Assembly: GCF_010915705.1 (NCBI RefSeq)
Contig: NZ_JAAIKE010000004.1
Span: forward strand, 124,001 to 188,000
Reading direction: 5' to 3'
DNA from: Pseudotabrizicola algicola
Lineage (GTDB): Bacteria > Pseudomonadota > Alphaproteobacteria > Rhodobacterales > Rhodobacteraceae
DNA: 64,000 nucleotides
In this document: piece after piece, positions 20,272 through 64,000 of the stretch
Position numbering within the stretch: position 1 is the first letter of the stretch
How the letters are laid out: every line of letters starts with the position of its first letter
Program-made: the position numbers and the translations under genes
Notes under the pieces: generated by a model
Seen by the model: only the letters and a program-made list of their open reading frames with translations
The model's database searches: none
What the model was told of the DNA's origin: nothing

Positions 20272-20505
20272 GCGCGCGTTGGCCGGGAAGATGCGCAGAA
20301 ATCAGCCGAGGAACCCAGAAACACCGCTTTGGCGGCGCGGGCGCGCGCGCGCCAGATTGTTTGTGCTTGATTTTGGGGGAATCTGAGTCATCCTTGGCGG
20401 AAGTGATGACAGACTTTCTGACCGCCTCGCAGACCGAAGGCCGTGGAATCTGGCGGCACGGCTTGCGGCAATTCCGCTGCGGGGTGAGTTGAGAGGAGAG
20501 ACAGG

Positions 20506-20712
20506 ATGCCTACCGGCACTGTAAAATGGTTCAACGCGACCAAGGGCTTCGGCTTTATCGCCCCCGATGGCGGCGGCAAGGATATTTTCGTGCATATCTC
20601 GGCGGTGGAGCGGGCGGGCCTGCAGGGCCTGAACGACAACCAGAAGATCGCCTACGAGCTGCAATCGGGCCGCGACGGCCGCGAGTCTGCGGGCGATCTG
20701 CGCCTGCTGTAA
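20506..20712 (+). CDS. Cold-shock (CspA-family) nucleic-acid-binding protein
   Basis: A 68-residue single cold-shock domain. RNP1 (KGFGFIAPD, residues 13-21) and RNP2 (DIFVHISAV) are intact, and it starts MPTGTVKWFNATKGFG as is typical of alphaproteobacterial Csp proteins. It binds single-stranded RNA or DNA and melts secondary structure. GAGAGGAGAGA precedes ATG 20506. About 260 bases without a gene lie upstream, room for a long leader of the kind known in csp genes, though I see no specific structure. A symmetrical terminator follows. Confidence 0.96.
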   Translation: MPTGTVKWFNATKGFGFIAPDGGGKDIFVHISAVERAGLQGLNDNQKIAYELQSGRDGRESAGDLRLL

Positions 20713-20730
20713 GGCGGCCAAGGATCAGAC

Positions 20731-20763
20731 AAAAGGGCGGCCGCGCCAGCGGGCCGCCCTTTT
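20731..20763. terminator. Bidirectional terminator between cspA-like and arsC-like genes
   Basis: AAAAGGGCGGCC (20731-20742) pairs with GGCCGCCCTTTT (20752-20763), giving a stem flanked by A- and T-runs. It can end transcripts from both the cold-shock gene and the converging ArsC-like gene. Confidence 0.88.
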
Positions 20764-20786
20764 GCATTTTCAGTCGGCGGTCGGGG

Positions 20787-61528: not shown

Positions 61529-62518
61529 ATGGATGCCGCGATGGAGATGACCGATCTGGCAAATGCCGTGATCGCGGGCGACCGCAGGGCCTTGGCACGC
61601 GCCATCACGCGGGTGGAAAGCGCCCGCGCCGATCACCGCGCCGAGGCGGTGGACCTCGTGGCACAGGCCCGCGCCGCAGGGCGGCAGGCGCTGCGCATCG
61701 GGCTGTCCGGCACGCCGGGGGTGGGCAAATCCACCTTCATCGAGGCATTCGGCATGATGCTGGTGGCGCAGGGCCTGCGCGTGGCTGTGCTGGCGGTGGA
61801 CCCTTCCTCGGCCCGCTCGGGCGGCTCCATCCTCGGCGACAAGACGCGGATGGAACGGCTCAGCCGCGACCCTGCCGCCTTCATCCGCCCCTCGCCCTCG
61901 CAGGCGCAGATGGGCGGCGTCGCCCGCCGCACCCGCGAAGCGGTGGCCCTGTGCGAGGCGGCGGGCTTTGACGTGGTGCTGGTGGAAACCGTGGGCGTCG
62001 GCCAGTCTGAAACCGTGGTAGCGGAAATCTGCGACCTGTTCATCCTGCTGCTGGCCCCGGCGGGGGGCGATGAACTGCAAGGCGTCAAGCGCGGCATCAT
62101 GGAAATGGCCGACCTGATCCTCGTGAACAAGGCCGATGGCGATCTCAAACCCGCGGCCCAGCGCACCCGCGCGGATTACGCGGGGGCGCTGCACCTGTTG
62201 CGCCGCCGCCCGCAAGACCCCGAAGGCTTTCCCAAGGCGCTTTGCGTCTCGGCCATCGAAGACAGCGGCCTGACCGAAGCCTGGGCCGACATGCAAAGGC
62301 TGGCCGGCTGGCGCAAGGCAAACGGCCACTGGCAAAGCCGCCGCGCCCATCAGGCCCGCCACTGGTTCGGCGAAGAGGTGCGGCAGGGCCTTTTGTCGGT
62401 GCTGGACCGTGAACCGGCCAAGGGCTCGATGGCCGCCTTGGGCGCGCGCGTCGAGGCGGGCGATCTGTCCCCCGAGGCGGCGGCAACGCAGATGCTGGCG
62501 CTGCTGGGCCGCGCCTAG
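61529..62518 (+). CDS. meaB: MeaB/ArgK GTPase (methylmalonyl-CoA mutase chaperone)
   Basis: A 329-residue G3E GTPase: Walker A GTPGVGKST (near 60-68), VDPSSARSGGSILGD, the ETVGVGQSE switch and NKADGD. It protects and loads adenosylcobalamin-dependent methylmalonyl-CoA mutase (or ethylmalonyl-CoA mutase in this group). The mutase gene is not in this window. ATG 61529 with alternative ATG 61541. The C-terminal RRAHQARHWFGEEVRQ segment is typical. Confidence 0.94.
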   Translation: MDAAMEMTDLANAVIAGDRRALARAITRVESARADHRAEAVDLVAQARAAGRQALRIGLSGTPGVGKSTFIEAFGMMLVAQGLRVAVLAVDPSSARSGGSILGDKTRMERLSRDPAAFIRPSPSQAQMGGVARRTREAVALCEAAGFDVVLVETVGVGQSETVVAEICDLFILLLAPAGGDELQGVKRGIMEMADLILVNKADGDLKPAAQRTRADYAGALHLLRRRPQDPEGFPKALCVSAIEDSGLTEAWADMQRLAGWRKANGHWQSRRAHQARHWFGEEVRQGLLSVLDREPAKGSMAALGARVEAGDLSPEAAATQMLALLGRA

Positions 62519-62546
62519 CAGGCGCAAGGCACGGCAGAACTGCGGG

Positions 62547-62564
62547 GGCTGCCCGCGGGCAGCC
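62547..62564 (+). terminator. GGCTGCCC-GC-GGGCAGCC hairpin after meaB
   Basis: A perfect 8-base dyad 29 bases after the meaB stop, with no U-run. It may end the meaB transcript with help of Rho. Confidence 0.45.
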
Positions 62565-62677
62565 GCCACGATTCCCCTGCAAGACCTGTCACTTTTATGA
62601 CAAGAGATCACATCCCGATGAAATTCACCGCAGTCAGCCATGCACAAATCGCATAGCGGCTTTGGGTTTTCAGTGGA

Positions 62678-62705
62678 TTGTCGCGGTGCAGCATCCACCC
62701 CATGT
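62678..62705 (+). promoter_or_regulatory. RpoH-type (heat-shock sigma) promoter of the DUF1127-sRNA locus
   Basis: CCCCATGT (62698-62705) matches the RpoH -10 consensus CCCCATnT fully, with TTGTCG (62678-62683) as -35 and a 14-base spacer. The predicted start is near 62711, giving a leader of about 60 bases before DUF1127. In R. sphaeroides the equivalent locus is driven by RpoHI/RpoHII. Confidence 0.6.
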
Positions 62706-62771
62706 TAGCGTCAACGGAAAAGGCGGATGGGCCGCCCGATCCGGTCCGAAGATGATGAAGAGGAAAAGATC

Positions 62772-62987
62772 ATGGCTTACACGAACACGCAAACGGTTGC
62801 TGGCATTCAGGTCGGCGGATGGATGGGCGATGTTCTGGCCAAGTGGAATGTGGCCCGCGAGCGTCGCGCGGTCTATCTGCAAACCCTGAACGAATTGTCG
62901 GCCATGTCCGACCGCGATCTGGCCGACATCAACGTCGCCCGCGTGTCGATCGAAGACATCGCGCGCCAGGCCGCCTACGGCAAGTAA
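62772..62987 (+). CDS. DUF1127 small protein (CcaF1-like)
   Basis: A 71-residue protein ending in the DUF1127 segment LNELSAMSDRDLADINVARVSIEDIARQAAYGK; the central WNVARERRAVYLQTL helix is basic. In Rhodobacter sphaeroides a DUF1127 protein (CcaF1) lies in front of the CcsR sRNAs and binds RNA. The same order occurs here: an RpoH-type promoter, this gene and two CCTCC-rich stem-loops. GAGGAAAAGATC marks ATG 62772. A role in RNA turnover under stress is inferred from that parallel. Confidence 0.88.
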   Translation: MAYTNTQTVAGIQVGGWMGDVLAKWNVARERRAVYLQTLNELSAMSDRDLADINVARVSIEDIARQAAYGK

Positions 62988-63039
62988 TCGCCACCCCGGT
63001 GGCCCCATGAAACACGTCGCCCACGGGTGACACCAGCCT

Positions 63040-63118
63040 CCTGAAGGCGCTCTCCTCCTCCCTGCGCCAACAGGTTTCGCGGCGAACCGGTCCTCCCCCG
63101 GTTCGCCGCTTTCTTTTG
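63040..63118 (+). ncRNA. Cuckoo (CcsR)-type stress sRNA candidate
   Basis: Two consecutive stem-loops follow DUF1127. The first (GGCGC 63046-63050 / GCGCC 63064-63068) presents CCTCCTCCC (63054-63062) in its loop. The second has a 12-base-pair stem (63079-63090 / 63098-63109) with TCCTCCC in its loop, and is followed by TTTCTTTT, forming the terminator. This is the described architecture of the CcsR ('cuckoo') family, whose loops resemble an anti-Shine-Dalgarno. The RNA is probably cut from the DUF1127 transcript. Exact ends are estimated. Confidence 0.72.
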
Positions 63119-63237
63119 TCCGCCGCCGCCCCGCCCCTGTGGCGATGTTAGCGCTGTCATAATCTGTGAAGCGCGGGGGGCTTTCCGTGGCCTCTGCCCC
63201 GGTTTACCCAAGGGCGCATTACAGGGAGAAAGCCGCC

Positions 63238-64000
63238 ATGACCATGACCGAGGCAAACCGCGCCCGCTGGGCTGTCGCGATGATGTTCGCGGCGGCGGGT
63301 TTCGTCATGGGGGCCTGGGCCCCGCAGATCCCGCTGCTGCTGCCCCGCCACCAGATCAGCGAATTCACGCTGGGCCTTCTGATCCTCGTTCTCGGCCTCG
63401 GCGCGGTGGGGGCGATGGTCTTTACCGGACGGCTGATCGGGCGCTATGGCTCGGTCGCGGTCTTGCGCGCCTTTGCCCTCTCCGCCGCCGCCGCCTTGCC
63501 GATCGTGGTGTTCTCGCCCTCGCTCGTGGTGCTGACGCCTGCGATGGCGCTGTTGGGCGCGCTGATCGGCTGCATGGATGTGGCAATGAACGCCAATGCG
63601 GTCGAGGTCGAACGCCGCCTTGGCCGCGCCATCATGTCCTCCAGCCACGGGTTCTGGAGCCTTGGCGGCTTTGTCGGCGGATCGGCGGGCGCTTGGGTGA
63701 TCTCGCTTTGGGGCGCGGAAACGCAGGCGGCGCTGGTGGCTGTGGTCACGGCCGCGCTGGTCATCGCCGTGATGCCCTTCCTGCGGGGCGAGGCGCCTGC
63801 CCCCGTCACCGCCACGGCATCCGGCGAAAAGACCGTCCTGCTGCCGCGCGCGGCAGGGCTCTGGCTGCTGGGGGCGCTGGCGCTGTTCTCGATGGTGCCC
63901 GAAGGCGCGGTGCTCGACTGGGCGGCGCTCTACCTGCAAAAGGACATGCAGTCCGACGTGTTCCGCTCGGGTCTCGGCTTTGCCTTCTTTGCCGGGGCGA
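63238..64000 (+). CDS. MFS transporter, 3'-truncated by the window
   Basis: At least 254 residues of a major facilitator superfamily permease of the YbjJ/fucose-permease-like type. It has hydrophobic helices from residue 12 on, MGAWAPQIPLLL in helix 1, GRLIGRYGS between helices 2 and 3 and CMDVAMNANAVEVERR in the fourth helix region. GGGAGAAAGCC precedes ATG 63238. The reading frame is open to the last base, so the gene continues beyond the window. Its substrate is unknown. Confidence 0.88.
   Translation, partial: MTMTEANRARWAVAMMFAAAGFVMGAWAPQIPLLLPRHQISEFTLGLLILVLGLGAVGAMVFTGRLIGRYGSVAVLRAFALSAAAALPIVVFSPSLVVLTPAMALLGALIGCMDVAMNANAVEVERRLGRAIMSSSHGFWSLGGFVGGSAGAWVISLWGAETQAALVAVVTAALVIAVMPFLRGEAPAPVTATASGEKTVLLPRAAGLWLLGALALFSMVPEGAVLDWAALYLQKDMQSDVFRSGLGFAFFAGA

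Follow-up and report, generated by a model that had tools for sequence, protein, structure and literature searches.

The 64-kb stretch of DNA analysed here (the window) probably carries a second, single-unit locus of the ccaF1-CcsR type ('CIN1'), which would make an anti-Shine-Dalgarno (anti-SD) stress RNA together with a CcaF1-like protein. The analysis established the anatomy of this locus (Table 1), its conservation, the constancy of two loops over stems that vary, a promoter sequence shared with a full array, and the presence of that array in the same genome. A previous sequence-only reading had described at this place a TTG -35 element with CCCCATGT, a DUF1127 gene, and two stem-loops with anti-SD loops followed by a terminal U-run, and we recovered all of these elements, the gene by its Pfam domain.

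The same reading had taken the locus to be a minimal version of the one known in Rhodobacter sphaeroides. This had to be abandoned. A full ccaF1-type array is located about 32 kb downstream of the window locus (G000:C24:218776-219600), where a DUF1127 gene precedes six two-hairpin units with 12 CCTCCTCCC motifs in all, and the DUF1127 proteins of window and array share 39% identity. Since the genome carries the full array too, the window locus is a second, single-unit paralogue. With its upstream region the array locus covers G000:C24:218661-219600 (L039, L209), and its core promoter is the same as that of the window gene, called the solo gene from here on. In R. sphaeroides we counted 14 CCTCCTCCC motifs after ccaF1 (G066:C4:692493), that is, seven two-hairpin units, several of them near-identical repeats; the literature speaks of CcsR1-4. 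The genome used for this species, G066, is Cereibacter sphaeroides, and 3 kb of its 105-kb contig are 99.9% identical to plasmid records of strain 2.4.1.

Table 1. Elements of the solo locus, in positions of the window.
Feature	Start	End	Strand	Details
Dyad GCCATGC-N7-GCATAGC running into CGCATAGCGGCTTTG	62637	62664	+	Dyad 62637-62657; CGCATAGCGGCTTTG 62650-62664; aligned with the array element
RpoH-type core promoter (named by homology), TTG-N17-CCCCATGT	62678	62705	+	TTG 62678-62680; CCCCATGT 62698-62705
DUF1127 gene, 71 aa, CcaF1 paralogue	62772	62987	+	ATG 62772; TAA 62985-62987; Pfam PF06568, E 1e-7
3' UTR spacer, stop codon to hairpin 1	62988	63039	+	Sequence and length vary across the genus
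Hairpin 1, CCTG + GGCGC stem, loop TCTCCTCCTCCCT	63040	63074	+	CCTCCTCCC at 63054-63062
Hairpin 2, 12-bp stem, loop TCCTCCC	63079	63109	+	Loop 63091-63097; found by terminator scan
U-rich tail of the intrinsic terminator	63110	63117	+	TTTCTTTT after hairpin 2

Promoter, upstream box and protein

The exact pattern TTG-N17-CCCCATNTTA has two sites in the 4.49-Mb genome, one upstream of the solo gene and the other upstream of the array, and the reversed pattern, used as a control, has none. A looser version (TTG, 14-19 nt, CYATNT or near) was present at all 14 meaB-linked loci of the genus and at 12 of the 13 array loci examined. The ccaF1 promoter of R. sphaeroides is TTG-N17-GCCCATGTTT and matches that of the window in core and spacing; a figure legend in PMC10253847 gives the ccaF1 operon an RpoHI/RpoHII promoter. 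By homology to ccaF1, we name the window promoter RpoH-type. This label rests on the R. sphaeroides homologue, because in the genome of the window groES has no core promoter pattern upstream and dnaK is preceded by no more than a looser one, TTG-N-CCTATAT. A promoter common to groES and the window locus was rejected on the same absence, and a sigma-70 promoter for the window gene was discarded as no sigma-70-like site was found in 62500-63250. Upstream of groES (L108) there is an inverted repeat, TTAGCACTC-N9-GAGTGCTAA, which we take to be a CIRCE/HrcA operator.

The array locus carries in addition an exact TGCATGGCGGCATTG box 5' of the core promoter (L039, L209) that resembles the binding site of VtlR. 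The Brucella VtlR motif is given as CAATGCAGCCATGCA, in a paper that describes VtlR as activating DUF1127 genes and AbcR RNAs (PMC12595884), and the corresponding box in Agrobacterium has the form GCAT-N3-TG-N3-T (PMC7486931). Taken as its reverse complement, the Brucella motif fits just 5' of the array -35 element; arrays have AG or GG at the TG position of the box, one letter off. We scored the box out of 15 letters, at no more than 300 nt from the gene start and with one array of the genus (L046, in G006) excluded from the upstream counts. Scores of at least 13 were obtained for 24 of 27 array promoters (13/13 in the genus, 11/14 elsewhere). Among the short loci 1 of 5 scored as high, and among the solo-type genes 2 of 15; in the comparison sets, DUF1127 genes lacking anti-SD motifs gave 2 of 45 and window tiles 0 of 208. 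The best score at the window locus is 11, a value equalled by 25 of the 208 tiles. The strict dyad pattern appears in 7/15 solo promoters, 18/27 array promoters and 3/213 window tiles. By its alignment with the array element, CGCATAGCGGCTTTG upstream of the window promoter corresponds to the array's VtlR-like box in a degenerate form. As for the rest of the genome, TGCATGGCNGCATTG has a single exact site, before the array, and four one-mismatch sites elsewhere; with the genome's other four VtlR-like sites, L014 and L147, Rfam gave no matches at gathering scores. VtlR may bind at the array box. In the portions of the literature covered by our search, no mention of a VtlR-like site at ccaF1 was found. 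The box before the arrays suggests a tie between the VtlR-DUF1127 circuit of Rhizobiales and the CcaF1-CcsR stress locus.

Five DUF1127 matches were detected in the genome of the window. The best R. sphaeroides match of the window protein is the CcaF1-type gene (36% identity, E 2.6e-8). Another DUF1127 gene of that species, RSP_0557, was considered as the orthologue and rejected: the RSP_0557-like gene (G066:C4:2294439, 70 aa, which by its length is presumably RSP_0557 itself) matches the window protein at E 0.1 only. In the tree it groups with own_L014 (C26:107546), a gene of the window's genome that resembles it, and anti-SD motifs are absent downstream of both, over 800 nt for the former and over the 300 nt examined for the latter. 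This tree (94 rows, 71 columns, 4 of 89 inner branches starred, L197 and L205 left out for having no usable ORF) was used for the subfamily split alone. The solo and array proteins differ in a conserved motif, which is DIN in 13 of the 14 meaB-linked proteins (DIG in G010) and DLG in the 13 of 13 array proteins shown. DIN as opposed to DLG appears to be the paralogue signature.

The two-hairpin RNA and its distribution

We scanned both strands of the 64-kb window for hairpins with a stem of at least 5 pairs, at least 3 of them G-C, and TCCTCCC in the loop. Two were found, the adjacent pair of Table 1, and nothing else on either strand, so that the window does contain the single two-hairpin unit described before. 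None of 200 simulated order-2 Markov windows had such an adjacent pair. The fold of 62985-63125 is more stable than that of its shuffles by 5.5 sd (0/200 equally stable), and the terminator scan of 62500-63250 returned two terminator-like sites, hairpin 2 among them, against 0.7 in shuffles. Across 12 orthologues with two loops, the loop core CTCCTCCCT of hairpin 1 is invariant and is the sole invariant run of more than one letter in that hairpin. The loop of hairpin 2 is TCCTCCC in all 12, and the full CCUCCUCCC appears in none of these second loops. The stems of hairpin 2, when the 12 orthologues are read one by one, come in six versions of 12-13 pairs, two of which differ in the last pair alone (G-C or G-U).

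In the alignment of these orthologues 93.5% of the cells form standard pairs (88.9% in helix 1, 97.1% in helix 2), a value that 0 of 500 shuffles reach, and the covariation score was likewise matched by 0/500. Four pairs have both sides changed, a number reached by 2 of 500 shuffles. When the structure was slid by -3 or +2 columns there were also four double-changed pairs, but only 50.4% and 33.9% of the cells were paired. The RNAalifold covariation term was +0.29, slightly unfavourable and thus no gain; in the MAFFT alignment the G008 and G010 stems are out of register. The covariation support for the two-hairpin structure is therefore thin, and the strongest structural evidence is that of fixed loops over varying stems rather than the covariation statistics. 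Because the spacer before hairpin 1 is unconserved in sequence and length across the genus (about 9 nt in G011), a processing site cannot be read from it.

Rfam gave no match in the window at gathering scores. The sequence-only reading had proposed a kinship to the ccaF1-CcsR locus, to be checked by a covariance search, and in this respect it stood well. The CcsR1 model (RF02791) aligns with the window RNA over positions 1-83 of 83, with 34.0 bits (E 1.6e-4 in 64 kb) for a cut-off of 65.3. In a genome-wide search this was the sixth match (E 2.6e-6), better than chance; the five better ones are all in one array, and the best match outside the array and the window RNA had E 0.085 over the whole genome. 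Only one of the six matches in the array of the same genome passes the cut-off (68.8 bits, the others 12.8-52.3), so the score of the window RNA below it says little. Among 14 control genomes, 12 had some CcsR1 match at E up to 10 and none was above the cut-off. The kinship is borne out also by the gene order and the promoter, similar to that of R. sphaeroides ccaF1. The ar14 model (RF02344) gave 37.5 bits (E 0.0022), under its cut-off of 58.8. Elsewhere in the window, 20372-20764 (+) had a weak Rfam cspA thermoregulator match (24.8 bits, cut-off 78).

The protein has a match in 15 of 16 genomes of the genus (none in G009) and the solo gene has meaB upstream in 14 of the 16. At 12 of these 14 meaB-linked loci the solo gene is followed by a match to the MFS gene of the window, and at 12 of the 14 by two anti-SD loops. 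G007 has three anti-SD motifs and two DUF1127 genes in tandem, and in G012 a different terminator, one that lacks anti-SD loops, comes after the DUF1127 gene. The named relatives with at least 70% identity are Pseudotabrizicola species and records called Pseudorhodobacter, Cypionkella and Gemmobacter, among others; P. formosa and P. alkalilacus are two species in which the locus is present. Arrays with 9 to 16 motifs were found in 14 genomes of the genus, 13 of which also have the solo locus (the count excludes G007, with its second DUF1127 locus, and G009). Out of 136 genomes of other genera with a meaB match we examined 20, picked mostly by closeness of MeaB, and found no DUF1127 gene or anti-SD motifs downstream of meaB in the stretch covered for any of them (two of the stretches were short, L088 with 758 nt and L107 with 1600 nt). 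The identical HMM and motif search recovers the loci of the genus. The meaB neighbourhood as a family-wide trait was discarded on this result.

The RNA has a wider range. When the 12 solo RNAs were turned into a model, it had a match at E 0.001 or better in at least 87 of 149 genomes of the family, a lower bound, given that the scoring covered 29 candidates in each genome and failed to recover R. sphaeroides. Among 30 retained loci, seven (L118, L120, L124, L125, L131, L136 and L140) are two- or three-motif anti-SD RNAs with no DUF1127 gene within the 1.5-kb flanks. Seen from the side of the gene, 16 hand-picked genomes of other genera, R. sphaeroides included, contain 64 DUF1127 matches (L197 and L205 among them). 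Five or more motifs lie downstream of 14 of these, in 14 genomes, one or two motifs downstream of 5, and the remaining 45 have no motif within 800 nt. In G022 a DUF1127 gene with an array comes first, followed by two DUF1127 genes each with a short anti-SD unit and by one without; in G072 a DUF1127 gene is accompanied by a two-hairpin RNA in which the second loop is likewise TCCTCCC. These two genomes indicate that short loci of DUF1127 plus anti-SD RNA occur beyond the genus. In G022 (L117, contig C6, reverse strand) the last tandem DUF1127 gene ends in a plain terminator, a picture of cassette-like duplication and loss.

Possible mechanism and alternative readings

By analogy with the CcsR/CcaF1 system, for which the steps have been published (PMC10253847, PMC8625941, PMC8307010, PMC3927594), the window locus may be transcribed under stress and its RNA may be released and pair with targets, while the protein may bind RNA. 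RpoH would switch the locus on under stress through the core promoter shared with the array. One transcript would encode the 71-aa DUF1127 protein and finish in a 3' end with two hairpins, about 78 nt long, in which hairpin 2 would double as the transcription terminator. This end, freed or not, would expose the C-rich loops, and these could pair with the Shine-Dalgarno sequences of mRNAs, lowering the translation or stability of the targets under stress, as proposed for the CcsR family. The protein would bind RNA in a CcaF1-like manner; RNA binding by DUF1127 proteins in general is disputed (PMC12501420, PMC11707872).

Other readings of the same elements have to be weighed. The hairpins might be the remnant of an array unit, kept as the terminator of the DUF1127 gene and giving no trans-acting RNA. 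Hairpin 2 is indeed a terminator-like site, G012 carries a different terminator in its place, and the array elsewhere in the genome could provide all the CcsR function. Yet hairpin 1 and a fixed loop are superfluous for a terminator, and both loops are invariant in 12 of 12 orthologues where the stems change, which makes this reading unlikely. It is only somewhat less doubtful that the transcript works uncleaved, as a dual-function mRNA acting through its 3' loops. The spacer, short in some genomes (G011) and unconserved, has no obvious processing site, as would be expected then, but there is a close precedent for cleavage, since RNase E together with CcaF1 is reported to release the CcsR RNAs of R. 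sphaeroides (PMC10253847).

A role in cis appears improbable to us. The loops would pair with the start region of their own gene, or bind the CcaF-like protein, and in this way set the level of the mRNA. CcaF1 is reported to be involved in how the transcript that encodes it is processed, and to influence the amount of CcsR (PMC10253847, PMC8307010), and AGAGGA is found in the start region of the window gene. The duplexes between loop and start in the 12 orthologues, however, range from -5.2 to -9.7 kcal/mol, while random 25-mers average -4.9 with the best 5% below -11.6. The pairing is thus somewhat above average, not exceptional, and autoregulation by pairing with the own start was set aside as unsupported, none of the energies reaching the best 5% of random 25-mers. 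We keep the reading of a second CIN1 locus with a trans-acting anti-SD RNA as the preferred one.

The association of DUF1127 with CcsR is known already under the name 'CIN1'. The apparent novelty is a single-unit paralogue, conserved in the genus, with a second loop lacking the full CCUCCUCCC and a drifted VtlR-like box; a literature search, covering titles and the start of abstracts, found no mention of a single-unit second locus, and the cuckoo-family and CcaF1 papers might mention one. A tentative idea, possible but not one that we would hold to firmly, is that the DUF1127 gene plus anti-SD RNA is a duplicable cassette. The copy by meaB would have kept the stress promoter while its VtlR-like box drifted, and would have become a separate regulator (DIN for DLG, a shortened second loop), with the two loci answering different signals. 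Tandem CcsR arrays are hard to study on account of their near-identical copies. The solo locus occurs in nature as one copy, shares the core promoter, encodes a protein of its own and has fixed loops, and so offers a simpler system for asking what one anti-SD unit does and whether protein and RNA depend on each other; G012, which has the gene but lacks the RNA, provides a ready comparison.

Relation to known systems

The RNAs of the cuckoo family reportedly have two to four adjacent hairpins each, and the window RNA has two. Neighbouring hairpins with anti-SD loops are what it shares with this family and with ar14 (RF02344) of the Rhizobiales relatives. The Rhizobiales members are described as having CCUCCUCCC in each loop (PMC3927594), whereas the window RNA has it in the first loop alone, the second being TCCTCCC. 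RSP_0557 is reported as a further R. sphaeroides DUF1127 gene with an RpoHI/RpoHII promoter (PMC10673084, PMC5036791), but genes of the RSP_0557 type belong to another subfamily, and the gene presumed to be RSP_0557 has no anti-SD motifs within 800 nt downstream. The introduction of PMC10253847, citing the cuckoo family paper, gives the name CIN1 to the arrangement of a DUF1127 gene with a CcsR-like RNA, and the window locus, a short DUF1127 gene with such an RNA, agrees with this definition. Among the closest systems is ccaF1-CcsR1-4 of R. sphaeroides, with which the window locus has in common the spacing of the core promoter, a 71-aa DUF1127 protein and a two-hairpin anti-SD RNA by the stop codon. 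It differs in having a single two-hairpin unit instead of several tandem RNAs, in its TCCTCCC second loop, in a protein that is 36% identical, and in that its genome additionally carries a full array of its own.
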